Translations under genes and position numbers: made by a program | Assembly: GCF_022385335.1 (NCBI RefSeq) | Contig: NZ_CP092431.1 | Span: 9,176,001 to 9,240,000, forward strand | DNA length: 64,000 bases | Origin: Streptomyces deccanensis | Lineage (GTDB): Bacteria; Actinomycetota; Actinomycetes; Streptomycetales; Streptomycetaceae | Reading direction: 5' to 3' | The notes under the pieces: generated by a model | What the model was told of the DNA's origin: nothing | The model's database searches: none | Seen by the model: the letters and a program-made list of their open reading frames with translations, nothing else | In this document: piece by piece, positions 49,880-58,105 of the stretch | Layout: each line of letters begins with the position of its first letter | Numbering within the stretch: the stretch's first letter is position 1

Positions 49880-50773
49880 TCAGACGCGGTCGGCCGCGAT
49901 CAGGACGTACTGGAAGGAGCCGTCCCGGTACGACTCGATGAACGCCTCCTCGATCCCGGTGACCAGCGAGGACGTGGCCCGCAGCTCCCAGTAGGGCAGC
50001 GTCTCCGCGGTGAGGTCGACGATGGTGTGCGGCACCAGCCGGTTGTCGGCCATGGCCCGCAGATACTCGCGACGGGAGTGGATGTTGCACTCGAAGTGGG
50101 CGTTGATCTGGGAGACCCACTTCGACGGCTGCCCGTAACGGGGGTTCCAGCAACCGGTGATGGTCACGTACCGCCCGCCCGCCTTCAGGAAGCGGGAGTG
50201 CTCGGCGAACAGGTCGTGGAGGTCGACGTACATGGTCGACTCGTTGTTCCACGACGCCGCGATGCTGCCCTTGTCGAAGGGGGTGTCGAGCATGTTGCAC
50301 ACGCGGGAGCGGACGTGGTCGTCCACGCGCAGTTCTCGCGCGCGCCTGTTGCCGAAGTCGGCCTGCGTGGCGGACAGGGTGACGCCCTCGACCTTGGACC
50401 CGAAGCGCTGGTGGGCCATGATCATGGACCCGCCGCGCCCGCAACCGGCGTCGACGAGGGTGTCGTCGGGGCCGACGGAGCCGAGGTGGTCCAGCAGGAA
50501 CTCCGCCTGCGCCGACTCCAGCCGGTGCAGCTCCGCGATCAGCTTCTTCTCGTACGCGCTGTCGGCCGGGTCGCCGAGCGCGGCGTGGTCCACGGCGCCG
50601 ATGCCGTAGTGGTGGTGGTAGAGCCCGTCCACGTCGCCGAGGCGGAGGTTGACGGGTCGTGCCTCGTTGTTCCAGTAGCGGGCGATGTCCTCCTGGTACG
50701 GCGATGCCGGGGCCGGGATCTTCGGGGTGGTCGCAGCGGTGGCCGTGGCGGGGGCGGTCGTTTCAGTGGTCAT
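49880..50773 (-). CDS. gppmt: Geranyl diphosphate 2-C-methyltransferase (2-MIB pathway)
   Basis: 297 residues. SAM-binding VDAGCGRGGS (107-116), then FGNRRARELRVDDHVRSRVC, STMYVDLHDLFAEHSRFLKA and VTITGCWNPRYGQPS, the substrate region with aromatic residues for the allylic cation. Sequence and context match the enzyme that methylates C2 of geranyl diphosphate to 2-methyl-GPP. The flexible Thr/Ala-rich first 22 residues are typical. It starts 16 bases after the 2-MIB synthase stop, the last gene of the operon. Confidence 0.95.
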   Translation of the reverse strand: MTTETTAPATATAATTPKIPAPASPYQEDIARYWNNEARPVNLRLGDVDGLYHHHYGIGAVDHAALGDPADSAYEKKLIAELHRLESAQAEFLLDHLGSVGPDDTLVDAGCGRGGSMIMAHQRFGSKVEGVTLSATQADFGNRRARELRVDDHVRSRVCNMLDTPFDKGSIAASWNNESTMYVDLHDLFAEHSRFLKAGGRYVTITGCWNPRYGQPSKWVSQINAHFECNIHSRREYLRAMADNRLVPHTIVDLTAETLPYWELRATSSLVTGIEEAFIESYRDGSFQYVLIAADRV

Positions 50774-50789
50774 GGAAAATATCCGTTCT

Positions 50790-52163
50790 CTACCAGAAAT
50801 CGGGCAGGCTGTAGCGGAAGGTATTGGTGCGGTGCCAGTCGTGGTTGCCGTCGACCCAGGCGGCCACGCCCCGCAGGAAGCGCAGCACGGTGGGCAGGGG
50901 ACAGGCCTGCGCGAGCTCGGTCGCGGCGGCCTCGAAGGCGTGCTGCAGTTCGTTGTGGATCTCGACGGCCTTCAGATAGGCGTCGCGCTCGGAGAGCTGC
51001 TCGCGTTCCGCGAGCACCACCGGAAGGTTCAGGTGGTGGCCGGGGCTGTCGAGTTCCTTGGTGTACGAGTAGAGGTCGTTGACGATGGTGGTCGCGTTGC
51101 CGGCCAGGGCGATGACCCGCTGCATGTCCGGCCGGGCGTGCAGGTCCGCGGGCAGCTCGTAGCCGCCGACGCTGTCGGTGATCGTGGGGCAGGGGCGGAA
51201 GTTGTTGAACTGGCGCATCGCCAGGTACTCCCACACCTCCGGGACGTGACCGGTCTGCGCCCAGGCGGCCTCGGCGAGGTACCCCATGTGCAGCCGGGCC
51301 ATGTCGTGCCGGTAGCGGTCGGCCTGGGACGGCGTCGTCGCGCGGACGAAGTACTCCATCGCGCTGTCGTACGCCCGGCGCGGGGCGTCCGAGGCGAGGG
51401 ACTCCCGCCACGCCGGCGCGTACTCCCCGGTGGTGTGGCAGTGGTCGAGCGCGGTGTGCGCGAGGAGGAGGCGCCCGCCGAGGCCGACGGGTGACCCGCC
51501 GTGGTCCTCGCAGTAGCAGTCGTCCACCGCGTTCTCCGCGACCATCAGCCGTGTGGCGAGCATCAGATGGTCGACCGTCGGGGCGTCGGGGTGGCAGGCG
51601 ACCATGTAGCGGCCGACGGAGAAACCGTCGAACTGCCCCTCCCACTCCTCGGGATAGAGCTGGACCTCGTCCTCGGCCCAGCGCTTGATGCGGCGGCTCA
51701 CCTCCTCGACGCGTACGGGGTCGGGCTCCGGAATCGGATGGTGGTAGAGGCCGGGGACCGCTCGCCCCTCGGCGGACGGAGCGGACGCCGGGGACGCCGG
51801 ACCCGGGAGCGGGGGGTTCAGACGGGAGGCCACGGCGAGCGAGGCCGTACCCGGTCCGGTCGGTCCGCGCAGGATCGCCCGGAGCGCGGAGTCGGCTGCC
51901 GTCGTGTCGGGCGCGTCCGGTACGGCGGTGACGGGCGCCGGGGACGGCAGCGGGGACGGGGCCGTGGGCGGGGGCGGTGGCTGTGCTGGTGGCGGGCCCG
52001 GGATCGTCACCGGGGGATGCAGTGACGCCAGAAAGCCGGCGGGGATCGGCGTGACCGTAGGGGTAGGGTCCGCGACCACCGGTGCGGGGGCGTCCGGCAC
52101 GGCTGTGGGCGGTGTCGGCCGCTGCTCGGGGGGTGATGATCCGAGGGGCCCGGAGTCGGGCAT
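50790..52163 (-). CDS. 2-methylisoborneol synthase (terpene cyclase) with Pro-rich N-terminus
   Basis: 457 residues; ATG at 52163 with AAGGAG six bases upstream (the frame stays open further upstream through repetitive DNA, but with no site). Residues 1-135 are disordered, rich in Pro, Ala and Thr, and contain a conserved-looking ALRAILRGPTGPGTASLA (93-110). The class I terpene synthase fold follows with the Asp-rich Mg2+ motif DDCYCED (214-220) characteristic of 2-MIB synthases, the NSE-type NDLYSYTKE, and a WxDGNHDWHRTN end. It cyclises 2-methyl-GPP to 2-MIB. The N-terminus is the likely loading peptide for the adjacent shell protein. Confidence 0.95.
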   Translation of the reverse strand: MPDSGPLGSSPPEQRPTPPTAVPDAPAPVVADPTPTVTPIPAGFLASLHPPVTIPGPPPAQPPPPPTAPSPLPSPAPVTAVPDAPDTTAADSALRAILRGPTGPGTASLAVASRLNPPLPGPASPASAPSAEGRAVPGLYHHPIPEPDPVRVEEVSRRIKRWAEDEVQLYPEEWEGQFDGFSVGRYMVACHPDAPTVDHLMLATRLMVAENAVDDCYCEDHGGSPVGLGGRLLLAHTALDHCHTTGEYAPAWRESLASDAPRRAYDSAMEYFVRATTPSQADRYRHDMARLHMGYLAEAAWAQTGHVPEVWEYLAMRQFNNFRPCPTITDSVGGYELPADLHARPDMQRVIALAGNATTIVNDLYSYTKELDSPGHHLNLPVVLAEREQLSERDAYLKAVEIHNELQHAFEAAATELAQACPLPTVLRFLRGVAAWVDGNHDWHRTNTFRYSLPDFW

Positions 52164-52199
52164 CGACGGCTCCTTGCTGTGCTGCGGTGGGGTGGGTGC

Positions 52200-52320
52200 T
52201 CCGTGGTGCGCGCACGCGGGGATGCACGTGTCCATGCGTGCGTAAGTGCGTGCGTCCATGCGTGCCTACGCGCGTGCGAGGCAGGTGCGTGCGTGTGTTC
52301 GGCGGGGCGGGTCGGGCGCT
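52200..52320 (+). repeat. TGCG-rich simple repeat between shell and synthase genes
   Basis: Interrupted (TGCG)n runs such as GTGCGTGCG, CATGCGTGCG and GTGCGTGCGTGTG fill the spacer between the encapsulin stop and the synthase ribosome site. Length is likely to vary and could tune the ratio of cargo to shell. Confidence 0.75.
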
Positions 52321-52351
52321 GACCCGCCGCGATCAGGGCGTGATCAGGGCC

Positions 52352-53776
52352 TCAACGCGGTCTGGCCGCGATCTGCACGTTCTCCATCACGCCGAGGGCG
52401 TCGGGCAGGAGCACGGCGGCGGAGTAGTAGGTGCTGACGAGGTAGGAGGTGATCGCCTTCGCGTCGATGCCCATGAACCGCACGGAGAGACCCTCCTCGT
52501 ACTCGTCCGGCAGTCCCGTCTGCCGCAGGCCGATGACGCCCTGGTTCTTCTCGCCCGTGCGCATCGCGATGATGGAGCTGGTCTGCTCCGGGCTGATCGG
52601 GATCTTGTCGCAGGGCAGGATGGGCACCCCGCGCCAGGCGGGGACGGTCTGCCCGCCGAGGTCGACGTGGTCGGGGTGGAGGCCGCAGGCGTTGAAGCCG
52701 CGTCCGATGGCGGCGATGGTCCTGGGGTGGGCGAGGAAGAGCTTGGTGCCCCGCCGACGGCAGAGGAGATCGTCCATGTCGTCCGGGGTCGGCGGGCCCG
52801 AGCGGGGTTGGATGCGCTGCTTGAAGTCGGCGTTGTGCAGCAGCCCGAACTCGCGGTTGTTGATCAGCTCGTGTTCCTGGCGTTCACGCAAGGCCTCGAT
52901 GGTGAGCCTGAGTTGCTCCTGGCTCTGGTTCATCGGGCCGTTGTAGAGGTCGGACACCCGGGTGTGGACGCGCAGAACGGTCTGCGCGACGGAGAGTTCG
53001 TACTCGCGCGGGCGCAGTTCGTAGTCGACGAAGGTGCCCGGCAGGTCGGCCTCGCCGACATGGCCGGCCGACAGGGCGATCTCGGCCTCGCCGTGCTTGT
53101 TCTGCCGCTGCCGGGTGCGGGAGCCGAACGCCTCGACGTGCGCCCGGAGTTGGGGCGCGGCGGCCTGGACGGCGGCGAAGTCGGCACGGGAGAGGGTGAG
53201 GAGGGTGCCGGCGGTCTCGGCGGTGACCGTGCAGTCGTGGCGGGCGTCGGGGTTCGACAACGCCTCCTCGCCGAAGTGGTCGCCGTCCGCGAGCACCGCG
53301 ACGGCGACCTCCCCGCCGTACTTGCCCTCGGAGGTCCGGTGGACCCGGCCGTGGGCGATCAGATGGATCCGGTCGGCGGGGCTGCCGCGCTCGACGAGGA
53401 CCTCGCCCGCCGCGAAGTCGCGCTGCGCGCAGCGGCCGGCGAGGGCGGTGAGGACGTCCGTGTCCTCGAACCCGCGCAGCGGGGCCAGCTCACCGAGTTC
53501 CCGGGGGATCACCTGGACCGTGGCGCCCTCCTGGACGAACTCGACGCGCCCGTCGCCCAGGGTGTGGCGCAGCCGTCGGTTGACCCGGTAGGCCCCGCCT
53601 CCGGCCTCGACCCAGGGCAGCATCCGCAGCAGCCAGCGGGAGGTGATCTCCTGCATCTGCGGGGCGGACTTCGTGGTGGTGGCGAGGTTGCGGGCGGCGG
53701 CGGTGCTCAGGGACTGCTGGGGCTGCTGAGGCGTGTCGGGTGCGGTCCGCGCTTCCGGGACGCTGTCGACGGACAT
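52352..53776 (-). CDS. Family-2B encapsulin shell protein with cyclic-nucleotide-binding-fold insertion
   Basis: 474 residues from the ATG at 53776 (AAGGAG upstream). HK97-fold encapsulin: an N-arm rich in Gln/Thr ([20 protein letters not shown]), then [21 protein letters not shown] cyclic-nucleotide-binding-like domain (about 100-205; [30 protein letters not shown]) is inserted in the E-loop position. The rest completes the fold with [50 protein letters not shown] and [20 protein letters not shown]. Such shells assemble into hollow particles that house 2-MIB synthase. First gene of the 2-MIB operon. Confidence 0.92.
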
Positions 53777-54146: not shown

Positions 54147-55886
54147 ATGCGCCCTCGAATAGCCTCCGTGCCGCCCCTCGCCCTGGCGGGCGGTGCGCTG
54201 ACCGTCGGTCTCGGCGGTCTGTACCTGGCCGGTCTGCTCGTCCTGGGGGGTGAGATCGAGGCGGGTACGACGGTGCGCGGGGTGGACATCGGGGGCCTCA
54301 GCCGCGCGGAAGCCGTCCGCAAGCTGGACGACCACCTGGCGGCGGCCGGCTCGCGGGAACTGGCCGTGAAGGTCGGCGACCGCGAAGGGACCGTCGACCC
54401 GCGGCAGGCCGGACTCGCCTTCGACGTCGAGCGGACCGTCGACCGGGCGGCGCGCACGGCCTCCGACCCTGTCGGGCTGATCGGCGGGCTCTTCCGTTCC
54501 GGGGGTGCCATCGAGCCGGTCGTACGCCTGGACGAGGGGAAGACCCGCGCCGCTCTCGGGAAACTGGCGAAGACCCTCGACCAGCGGGTCCGCGACGGGG
54601 CCGTGACCTTCGAGGACGGTCGGGTCGAGCAGGTCGCTCCGCACCGGGGCTACGCGCTGGACGTGGACGCCGCCGTCGACACCCTGCGGACCTCCTTCCC
54701 GCACACCACGGGGGACACGGTCACCGCACTGCCCACCCACATGACCGAGCCCAGGGTGGAGGCGGCGGAGGTGCGGCGGGCGGTGCGCGAGTTCGCGCGG
54801 CCGGCCATGTCGGCGCCCGTCACCCTCACCACGGGCGGCAGCCGGTTCACCATCGGCCCGGCCGTCGTGGGCGAGCACCTGACGATGCGGCCGGACGACT
54901 CCGGCAGGCTGGTCCCGAAGCTGGACGGCAAGGGCCTGCGCTCCGCCCCCGAGGTGGCCGGCCCCCTGGCGGACGTCACCGCCACGGCCGAGGACGCCCG
55001 CCTGCGGCTGGACGGCGACCGTGTCGTGGTGGCCGACGACGCCCGGCCCGGCGCACAGGTCACCGACGAGGCGCTGAGCGGCGCCGTGCTGCCGCTGCTC
55101 ACCGAGACGGGCGCGGCCCGCACCGGCGAAGTGGCCGTACGACACGTCGAGCCCGAGGTGACCCGGGAGAACGCGGCACGGCTGGGGCTGACGGAGAAGA
55201 TGTCGTCCTTCACCGTCAAGTTCGAACCGGCCCCGTACCGCACGAAGAACATCGGTCGGGCCGCCGAACTCATCAACGGCTCCCTCGTCAGGCCCGACGA
55301 GACCTGGAGCTTCAACCGCACCGTGGGGCAGCGCACCGAGGCCAACGGTTTCGTCGAGGGCGTCATGATCCTCGACGACCAGTTCACCAAGGCGGCCGGC
55401 GGTGGGGTCTCCGCCGTGGCCACGACCATGTTCAACGCGATGTACTTCGCCGGGGTCAAGCCGGTGGAGCACGGCGCCCACTCCTTCTACATCGAGCGGT
55501 ACCCGGAGGGCCGAGAGGCGACGGTCGCCTGGGGCAGCCTCGACCTCAGGTTCACCAACGACTCCGGCAAGGCCCTCTACATCCAGGCCGAGGCCACCGA
55601 CACCTCGGTGACCGTCACCTTCCTCGGCACCCGGAAGTACGACGAGATCACCTCGGTGAAGGGACCCCGGACCGATGTGAAGCCACCGGCGAAGAAGGTC
55701 AGCACCGACGAGAAGTGTGTGCCGCAGACCCCGCTCGAAGGCTTCGACGTCACCGTCGAACGGGTCTTCCACGACGACGGCAAGGTGGTGAAGCGGGAGC
55801 CCTTCCGCACCCACTACACCCCACGCGACGAGATCACCTGCGAAACCCCCGAGAAAGCCGACGACGACCGCCCCGACAAGCAATAG
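54147..55886 (+). CDS. VanW-family protein with peptidoglycan-binding-4 domains
   Basis: 579 residues. One N-terminal TM (about 7-30, PPLALAGGALTVGLGGLYLA), then PG_binding_4 repeats (about 45-330; VRGVDIGGLSRAEAVRKLDD, TTGGSRFTIGPAVVGEHLTM) and the VanW domain (about 340-560) with NIGRAAELINGSLVRPDETW, KAAGGGVSAVATTMFNAMYF and HSFYIERYPEGREATVAWGS. Anchored in the membrane and facing the wall, it is thought to bind or modify peptidoglycan. Standard in Streptomyces and not necessarily a vancomycin gene. GC-rich imperfect dyad after the stop may terminate it. Confidence 0.9.
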   Translation: MRPRIASVPPLALAGGALTVGLGGLYLAGLLVLGGEIEAGTTVRGVDIGGLSRAEAVRKLDDHLAAAGSRELAVKVGDREGTVDPRQAGLAFDVERTVDRAARTASDPVGLIGGLFRSGGAIEPVVRLDEGKTRAALGKLAKTLDQRVRDGAVTFEDGRVEQVAPHRGYALDVDAAVDTLRTSFPHTTGDTVTALPTHMTEPRVEAAEVRRAVREFARPAMSAPVTLTTGGSRFTIGPAVVGEHLTMRPDDSGRLVPKLDGKGLRSAPEVAGPLADVTATAEDARLRLDGDRVVVADDARPGAQVTDEALSGAVLPLLTETGAARTGEVAVRHVEPEVTRENAARLGLTEKMSSFTVKFEPAPYRTKNIGRAAELINGSLVRPDETWSFNRTVGQRTEANGFVEGVMILDDQFTKAAGGGVSAVATTMFNAMYFAGVKPVEHGAHSFYIERYPEGREATVAWGSLDLRFTNDSGKALYIQAEATDTSVTVTFLGTRKYDEITSVKGPRTDVKPPAKKVSTDEKCVPQTPLEGFDVTVERVFHDDGKVVKREPFRTHYTPRDEITCETPEKADDDRPDKQ

Positions 55887-56023
55887 GCGGGGCCCGGCAC
55901 GCGCCCGCGCCGTCCCGCGTCGTCCCGTGCGGGCGTGCGGTCTCCCGTCGAGGGAGGTAAGACTGACAGGGACCGGCGGACGGGGTGAGCGCACCCCTGT
56001 GCGCCGCCGGAAGGAGCCCCGGT

Positions 56024-58105
56024 ATGCCTGAGGAAGAGACCCGGAGCGGGAGCGGTGGGCAGGACCGCGTCACCGCCGCGCCGGGTGGGCTGCTGGATGT
56101 GCTGCGGGTGGCCGCCCTCGTCCTCGGCAGCGACGGCCGGATCGTGCTGTGGAGCCCTGAGGCCGAGGCCCTGCTCGGCTTCAGCGCGGCCGAAGCGCTG
56201 GGGCAGGACGCCGGCGCGCTGCTGGTGGACCCCGATCACCGGTCACTGGCGCACGAGCTGTTCGACCGTGTGCGTACGGGCGCCCGCTGGGCCGGCGTCT
56301 TCCCGGTGCGGCACAAGGACGGCGCCACCCGCCGGGTGGAGTTCCGCACGATGCAGCTGCGCGACGCCCGTGGCGACATCCACGCCCTCGGCCTGGGCAC
56401 CGACGCCGACACCGTGCGCGATGTGGAGCGGGACCTGGCCCTCTCGCAACTCCTGGTCAGCCAGTCACCCGTCGGCATCGCGGTCTTCGACACGGATCTG
56501 CGGTGGGTGCGGGTCAACCCGTCACTGGAACGCATCAACGGCGTCCCCGAGGCGGCCGTGCTGGGCCGCCGCGTCGGCGAGGTGCTGCCCGCGCTCGACG
56601 TCGAGGCCATCGAGTCACGCATGCGGCGGGTCCTGCGGACCGGCGAGCCGCTGCTGGACCAGCAGACGGTCGGCAGGACGGCCGCCGACGGCGAGGATCA
56701 CGCCTATTCGGAGTCGTACCACCGGATCCAGGACGCCAACGGGCGGGTCCTGGGCCTGGCGATGGCGATCATCGACATCTCCGAGCGGCAGCGGGCGACG
56801 AGCGAGGTCGCGAAGGCCCGCGAACGCCTGGCGGTGATCGCCGACGCCGGCGTCCGCATCGGCACCACGCTCGACCTGCGCCGGACGGCACAGGAACTCG
56901 CCGACGTGGCCGTTCCCGAGCTCGCCGACGTCGCGGCCGTCGACGTCCTGGACGCGGTGGTCAACCCCGGCGGCACGGCCGCGCCCCGGACGGACGGCTC
57001 CCTCGACTTCTGGGCGCTCGCCCTCAAGGCGAACCGCCCCACCGACGCGCTCGAGGCCCTGGACCCGGTCGGGGAGCCCGCCCAGTACAGCTCGTCCCGG
57101 CTGGTCACCCGGTCCGTACGCGAGGCGCGGACGATCCTCCTGGAGCACGTCGACGACGCGGCGATCCGGCACATCGCCCGGGACGAGACCGCGGCGCGGG
57201 CCCTGCGGCGCGCCGGTGTCCACTCCTGTCTGGTGGCTCCGCTGATCGCGCGCGGCGAGGTCCTGGGCACACTCAGCCTGTACCGCACGGCCGGCCCCCG
57301 GCCCTTCGACGACCAGGACCTCACCCTCGCCGGCGAACTGGCCGCGCGCGCCGCCATCTGCATCGACAACGCCCGCCTGTACGGCCGCGAGCGCGACATC
57401 GCGCTCACCCTCCAGCGCAGCCTGCTGTCCCAGCAGCCACCGCAGCACGGCGGCATCGAGGTCGCCTCCCGCTATGTGCCCGCCGTCAGCGAGGTGGGCG
57501 GGGACTGGTTCGACGTCCTGCCGCTCAAGGACGGCAAGGTCGGACTCGTCGTCGGTGACGTGATGGGCAAGGGTGTGCACGCAGCGGCGATCATGGGCCA
57601 GCTCCGCACGGCCACCCGCGCCCTCGCCCGGCTCGACCTGCCGCCCGCCGAGCTGCTGCACCACCTCGACGACCTCGCCACCTCCCTCGGCGACTCCGAC
57701 ACCCTGGCCACCTGCCTCTACGTCGTCTGCGACCCCCGGCACGGCCGGTGCGAACTCTCCCGCGCGGGCCACCTGCCCCCGGCCCTGGTCGGCCCGGAGG
57801 GCGGAGCCGAACTCCTCGACGTCGCCGGCGGGGTGCCGCTCGGGGTGGGGGGCGTGCCGTTCACCGTCGAGGAACGGGAACTCCCCGAGGGAGCGCTGCT
57901 CGTCCTGTTCACGGACGGCCTGGTGGAGAGCCGCGCGACACCCGTCGGGGCAGGGCTGCGGCGCCTGCTCGGACTGCTGGACGACGCCCGGCTTCCCCTG
58001 GAGCAGACCTGCGACATGCTCCTCGGCGCCCTGGACCGCGAGCGCAGCGACGATGTGGCGCTGCTCCTCGCCCGCCGCGTGGGCCGGTGCCCACCGGACG
58101 CCTGA
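56024..58105 (+). CDS. PAS-PAS-GAF-PP2C (SpoIIE-type) protein phosphatase
   Basis: 693 residues from the ATG at 56024 after AAGGAG. PAS1 (about 28-120; LVLGSDGRIVLWSPEAEALL), PAS2 (about 135-255; GIAVFDTDLRWVRVNPSLER, DISERQRA), GAF (about 275-455; EARTILLEHVDDAAIRHIAR, FDDQDLTLAGELAARAAICI) and a PP2C-SpoIIE phosphatase (about 480-690) with Mg/Mn Asp in EVGGDWFDV and GLVVGDVMGKG and the FTDGLVESR motif. It dephosphorylates anti-sigma-antagonist proteins in response to a small signal sensed by PAS/GAF. Such proteins usually act on the SigB-like or SpoIIAA-type switches. Confidence 0.9.
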   Translation: MPEEETRSGSGGQDRVTAAPGGLLDVLRVAALVLGSDGRIVLWSPEAEALLGFSAAEALGQDAGALLVDPDHRSLAHELFDRVRTGARWAGVFPVRHKDGATRRVEFRTMQLRDARGDIHALGLGTDADTVRDVERDLALSQLLVSQSPVGIAVFDTDLRWVRVNPSLERINGVPEAAVLGRRVGEVLPALDVEAIESRMRRVLRTGEPLLDQQTVGRTAADGEDHAYSESYHRIQDANGRVLGLAMAIIDISERQRATSEVAKARERLAVIADAGVRIGTTLDLRRTAQELADVAVPELADVAAVDVLDAVVNPGGTAAPRTDGSLDFWALALKANRPTDALEALDPVGEPAQYSSSRLVTRSVREARTILLEHVDDAAIRHIARDETAARALRRAGVHSCLVAPLIARGEVLGTLSLYRTAGPRPFDDQDLTLAGELAARAAICIDNARLYGRERDIALTLQRSLLSQQPPQHGGIEVASRYVPAVSEVGGDWFDVLPLKDGKVGLVVGDVMGKGVHAAAIMGQLRTATRALARLDLPPAELLHHLDDLATSLGDSDTLATCLYVVCDPRHGRCELSRAGHLPPALVGPEGGAELLDVAGGVPLGVGGVPFTVEERELPEGALLVLFTDGLVESRATPVGAGLRRLLGLLDDARLPLEQTCDMLLGALDRERSDDVALLLARRVGRCPPDA

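Follow-up and report, generated by a model that had tools for sequence, protein, structure and literature searches.

The stretch analysed here, 64,000 nucleotides of the Streptomyces deccanensis genome (10.1 Mb, one contig) and called the window below, carries a 2-methylisoborneol (2-MIB) cassette on its minus strand, with three co-directional genes transcribed in the order shell, synthase, methyltransferase. The gaps are 188 bp between shell and synthase and 16 bp between synthase and methyltransferase, and AAGGAG stands upstream of both the shell start and the synthase start. All three products passed the cut-offs of curated NCBI family models. The adjacency and common direction claimed in an earlier note, made from the letters alone, were confirmed. 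The features are, in window coordinates:

53776-52352, minus strand: family 2B encapsulin shell protein, 474 aa (NF041163 encap_f2b, 754 bits, cut-off 400; PF19307, 454 bits)
53168..53422, minus strand: cyclic-nucleotide-binding-fold insertion, shell residues 119-203 (PF00027, E 5e-16; structural model; Foldseek matches to CRP/HCN)
53237..53275, minus strand: degenerate phosphate-binding cassette, shell residues 168-180 (Arg179 in 51 of 81 shells)
52163-50790, minus strand: 2-MIB synthase, 457 aa (NF041167 f2_encap_cargo2, 494 bits, cut-off 400, scored on a longer open reading frame beginning at 52259; match to PDB 3v1x)
51768..52163, minus strand: disordered Pro/Ala/Thr-rich N-terminal tail, synthase residues 1-132 (composition; predicted local distance difference test, pLDDT; column conservation)
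51834..51887, minus strand: conserved tag element, synthase residues 93-110 (conservation; published consensus GPTGLGT)
51846-51866, minus strand: tag core GPTGPGT, synthase residues 100-106
50773-49880, minus strand: geranyl diphosphate (GPP) 2-C-methyltransferase, 297 aa (NF041943 GPPMT_Stmyces, 489 bits, cut-off 400)

The shell protein combines an SrpI/encapsulin HK97-type shell domain (NF041163; PF19307 at residues 220-470) with an internal cyclic nucleotide monophosphate (cNMP)-type domain ahead of it (PF00027), the combination that defines family 2B. Its closest solved structure is PDB 9bhu, 'Streptomyces griseus Family 2B encapsulin shell' (E 4e-242, residues 1-474), which we take to be EshA/Sg Enc. 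Both proteins match over the full length with the same domain order and 66% identity in the Foldseek alignment, but differ within the insertion, where a window stretch of 16 residues reads FGEHALLDEDARWSQT in 9bhu. For the synthase, the closest solved enzyme is the 2-methylisoborneol synthase PDB 3v1x (E 5e-250), presumably from S. coelicolor; the match covers the whole length, tail and GPTGPGT tag included, although the proline-rich linker is longer in the window protein. Both class I cyclase metal motifs are present (AVDDCYCED and NDLYSYTKE), and the GPP 2-C-methyltransferase gene that a 2-MIB cassette requires adjoins the synthase. Family models and solved relatives support the earlier proposal of a 2-MIB operon linked to a family 2B encapsulin, and the cassette is a further example of an already described system. 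The two-component 2B shell of S. lydicus (9bix, 9bje) belongs to the same shell family and has the cNMP insertion, but is built from two shell proteins and belongs to a putative xylulose-kinase system. The cyanobacterial cnb-mtf-mic operon, as described in PMC3072421, also joins a methyltransferase and a 2-MIB cyclase with cNMP-type genes; there, two cnb genes flank the pair, whereas the window has a single shell gene, upstream. A scan of viral contigs found no relative.

The synthase tail is rich in Pro/Ala/Thr, as noted earlier (56% of residues 1-132), and predicted to be disordered, with pLDDT < 50 across nearly all of residues 1-133. Within it, residues 93-110 read ALRAILRGPTGPGTASLA. In 40 aligned sequences (window and 39 orthologues), the only invariant tail columns were M1, G100, P101, G103 and G105. 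The pattern G[PA]xGxG[TA] was found in 118 of 119 homologous tails of at least 40 residues (a 120th homologue with a shorter tail was excluded), while shuffled tails predict 0.99; shuffling the window tail gave it in 34 of 20000 cases. The looser G[PA]xGxGx stood ahead of the core in 118 of 120 homologues, the best 120 of 1259 matches, the exceptions being one shortened motif and one short tail beginning within the motif. Over 78 loci, the majority residues round the tag are roughly L-x-R-[IV]-L-R-G-P-[ST]-G-L-G-T-[AT]-[SG]-L-x-L. The window tag agrees with GPTGLGT, proposed as a targeting sequence in PMC8346489, which also describes the unannotated termini of 2B cargo as commonly disordered. 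A disordered N-terminus, a GPTGLGT-type motif and then one cyclase domain form the layout of family 2 encapsulin cargo (2-MIBS-like). No GPxGxG element was found in the methyltransferase sequence (297 aa). A later study reportedly showed that the enzyme is loaded into the S. griseus shell by its tail. The comparison of N-termini among linked synthases proposed in the earlier note thus yielded a conserved tag, and its view of residues 93-110 as fitting a cargo-loading element stood.

Curated models, solved structures, the invariance of the tag in a variable tail, a neighbouring shell gene in 64 of 77 cassettes and the published motif point to a 2-MIB cassette of the type associated with family 2B encapsulins, in which the synthase is tethered inside the shell through its tail element (probability about 0.93). 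The synthase is very probably packed into the virus-derived shell by this short conserved tag. We infer shell assembly, cargo loading and tag function for the window proteins as follows. The methyltransferase, presumably acting outside the shell, would convert GPP to 2-methyl-GPP, which the synthase would cyclise to 2-MIB; the shell protein would self-assemble, and the LRGPTGPGTASL element in the disordered tail would tether the synthase within it. The cNMP-fold insertion would be displayed outside, near the two-fold pores, and is probably a structural or pore-covering element or a binder of a non-cyclic-nucleotide ligand.

Several observations weigh against packaging by the tag. The shell model was poor outside the insertion (whole-model mean pLDDT 57, predicted template modelling score 0.37). 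In S. scabiei (L126), where the tag is the variant APTGPGT, the shell is still present. GPxGxGT was absent in 17 shell-linked cyclase loci of other subfamilies (L102-L109, L111-L119), nine of which have LPGPP[NS][LI]A tails, so the tag is no universal rule of 2B loading. Finally, 13 of the 77 cassettes keep the tag with no intact shell gene within the flank examined; these are treated below.

The cyclic-nucleotide-binding fold placed by the earlier note at about residues 100-205 was found by PF00027 at 119-203. The insertion was modelled confidently (block mean pLDDT 75-93, residues 81-220), and its model matches CRP and HCN domains in Foldseek. The clear fold, the largely retained FGE motif (Glu170 of the phosphate cassette in 69 of 81 shells) and the presence of Arg179 in the window would suit a domain that binds cyclic AMP or cyclic GMP and gates the shell. 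However, the phosphate-binding Arg that cyclic-nucleotide-binding regulators conserve, and for which inspection had been suggested, occurs in only 51 of these shells and in hardly any from four further 2B groups (2/11, 0/9, 0/7 and 1/28). The 81 shells are that of the window, those of 64 named loci, the L146 fusion being one of them, and those of 16 other loci, of which L084 and L088 duplicate the named L152 and L166. Trp, His or Tyr fills position 180 in all but one of the 81 orthologous shells, and Trp does so in all 55 shells of the four further groups, a family-wide pocket change. Compared with the usual R-A-A-T signature of the phosphate-binding cassette, there is one additional residue between Arg179 and the next Thr. 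The insertion was also the most variable of five shell regions measured (mean entropy 0.85 bits, vs 0.44 for residues 246-474). In PMC12407261, no cyclic-nucleotide binding is reported, and its reference 35 is given for an earlier demonstration that the insertion does not bind these nucleotides; another ligand and pore regulation are suggested there, the insertion site is identified as the E-loop, and the S. lydicus Enc2 shell is described as a T=1 particle of 60 protomers and 28 nm, whose insertions lie on the outside, over the two-fold pores. Gating by cAMP or cGMP is thus very improbable, and the ligand, left open in the earlier note, is less open than it seemed, with a different ligand still conceivable. 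Older annotation has the cNMP-fold protein regulate the operon as a Crp/Fnr transcription factor, in line with the depositors' names for 9bix and 9bje and with a prediction in PMC3072421. With PF19307 forming its C-terminal half, no DNA-binding domain by Pfam and an encapsulin shell as the nearest solved structure, a transcription factor is refuted at family level and has practically no chance of applying here.

At least 513 relatives occur in named genomes, and the best 80 loci were analysed. Three were left unclassed: L121 and L134 because they sit at the ends of contigs, and L146 because shell and synthase are fused in one frame on its short contig. The L121 genome does have a shell of 88% identity, L220, at the end of a different contig. 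In 64 of the 77 classifiable cassettes, a shell gene stands beside the synthase, upstream and on the same strand, and 63 of these 64 were tagged by regular expression. No intact shell gene was found within the flank examined (10 kb upstream at all 13 loci; downstream shorter in L148 and L149) in the following:

Shell-less loci: L142, L145, L148, L149, L155, L156, L162, L164, L167, L185, L186, L195, L198

L142 and L167, like the unclassed L146, have matching shell fragments and were assigned by hand; leaving L142 and L167 out gives 11 of 75. The earlier expectation that a shell gene accompanies orthologous synthases with the same tail therefore held for 64 cassettes and failed for 13. The tag heptamer and both catalytic motifs were intact at all 13 shell-less loci, and the methyltransferase at 12. 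Shell remnants were observed at three: three fragments in L142, a gapped match of 37% over residues 215-470 in L167 and a weak one of 24 residues in L148 (E 0.001). A tree built from synthase and methyltransferase requires at least eight changes of shell state. Among seven pairs of shell-less loci compared, L145/L162 have 17 of 17 tag positions in common vs 52 of 81 aligned tail positions, and four other pairs 15 or 16 of 17; L142/L167 gave no clear difference (14 of 17 vs 77 of 101), and L195/L198 have only 10 of 17 in common. These counts are suggestive of selection on the tag after shell loss.

The shell-less genomes are not devoid of family 2B shells: further ones above cut-off are encoded in all 13. 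When full-length, these are 45-66% identical to the window shell, vs 74-89% for shells beside orthologous synthases (remnants and the split L127 aside); the L142 genome also has a truncated shell, L256, with 69% identity over residues 325-474. Tandem pairs were defined as two 2B shells on one strand < 1 kb apart and scored on matches at E 1e-100 or better. They are present in 11 of the 13 shell-less genomes, S. iranensis and S. albireticuli among the species, vs 3 of 63 genomes with a cassette shell, the L127 genome being assessed separately. One member of the pair is interrupted in two genomes: the second shell is broken into two frames in that of L185, and a contig end truncates the first in that of L170. 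A gene for an FGGY sugar kinase of the xylulose-kinase kind adjoins seven of the 11 pairs (L231, L233, L235, L237, L238, L239, L240), as assigned by Pfam for L231 and L239 and by near-identical N-termini for the other five. For the other four pairs, in the genomes of L145, L162, L155 and L186, Pfam covered two neighbours in L230 and three in L232, and no obvious cargo was seen among these. For two-component shells of the xylulose-kinase type, no native cargo had been determined according to PMC12407261. Shell positions that split tagged from untagged cyclase systems were considered as a tag-binding site and rejected, many of the states being common to tandem-pair shells, which may reflect descent alone.

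The association of shell loss with tandem pairs was evaluated on a gene tree of 92 tips (77 named loci, the window and 14 others after dropping two duplicates; pair states of the 14 from matches above about 624 bits). With shell loss assumed irreversible, a dependent model was favoured over an independent one (likelihood ratio 22.25, 3 df, p 5.8e-5). When shell loss was simulated independently of the pair, an equally strong association arose in 1 of 4000 runs, and in none of 4000 either without the S. violaceusniger group or with the pair redefined as any two shells within 10 kb. A stricter sign test of low power, over five independent pairs on well-supported branches, gave a mean of 1.6 for the link, 0.1 against and 3.3 without difference (median p 0.5). 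Four tips that keep both shell and pair (L147, L170, L176, L080) and two shell-less tips without a pair (L149, L164) count against the link. Simulations on one gene tree, with many of the genomes drafts, thus support it.

Two accounts of the shell-less tagged synthases were weighed. The tag could be a shell-independent feature of the synthase, acting in solubility, oligomer contacts or turnover, with the enzyme free in the cytoplasm where the dedicated shell is missing; the intact tag and catalytic motifs in all 13 orthologues are compatible with this, as are four divergent tagged relatives (L069, L076, L079, L100; 35-49% core identity) without a shell match in the stretch examined. Two short-contig loci likewise lack a shell match, L086 being tagged and L110 untagged. 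On the other hand, GPxGxG-type motifs recur in divergent shell-linked cyclase subfamilies (e.g., L067, L070, L083, L093), and the remnants at three of the 13 loci (one weak), together with other 2B shells in all 13 genomes, indicate shell loss rather than a tag unrelated to shells, so a shell-independent role is unlikely. Alternatively, tagged synthases without a dedicated shell may be loaded in trans into other 2B shells, chiefly two-component ones, sugar-kinase-linked pairs included, a proposal that we regard as tentative. If it is true, the dedicated shell would become redundant wherever a two-component shell is present and its repeated loss would be favoured, cargo searches restricted to shell-gene neighbourhoods would miss cargo, and 2-MIB synthase would become a concrete cargo candidate for two-component shells of the xylulose-kinase type. 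What is new is the loss of the shell gene with the tag kept in several relatives, the 2-MIB/encapsulin system itself having been described previously; for a musty odorant that spoils drinking water, this comparative result outweighs one more example of the cassette.

Two loci show altered shell genes. In Streptomyces sp. ms191 (L146:1867-3930; record also L082), one continuous frame joins the first 319 or so shell residues to the tagged synthase. Either a deletion fused the two genes naturally, or the 7.6 kb contig was misassembled. In S. galbus (L127), one of the 64 cassettes with a neighbouring shell gene, the tagged synthase is intact and the shell gene is broken into two frames, by either recent decay or sequencing error. 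Loci L102-L108 come from one genus in another family of the same order, where a methyltransferase and a cyclase without GPxGxGT are shell-linked, and several show further partial cyclase matches. At L098, one cyclase is flanked by two divergently oriented 2B shells, and similar divergent shell pairs occur in two other genomes, G144 and G173.

The idea that other proteins of this genome carry the tag was rejected: a degenerate DNA pattern for GP[ST]GLGT, which covered neither the Pro variant GPxGPGT nor the remaining Leu codons, gave one match vs one and one in the reversed control. No convincing tag was seen at the loci of the genome's other terpene synthases (L001, L002, L004, L005). At 1.17 Mb, the genome carries a second cassette (L118, G000:C1:1166779-1183804) with its own 2B shell and a cargo-type cyclase, whose tail (LPGPSSPA) has LPGPSSPARARR in place of GPxGxGT; no methyltransferase match was found within the 17 kb examined. 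A third 2B shell lies at G000:C1:6889179. Divergent from the shell gene in the window is a gene for a VanW-like protein with a peptidoglycan-binding domain (54147-55886), followed by a PAS/GAF/SpoIIE phosphatase gene (55985-58105).

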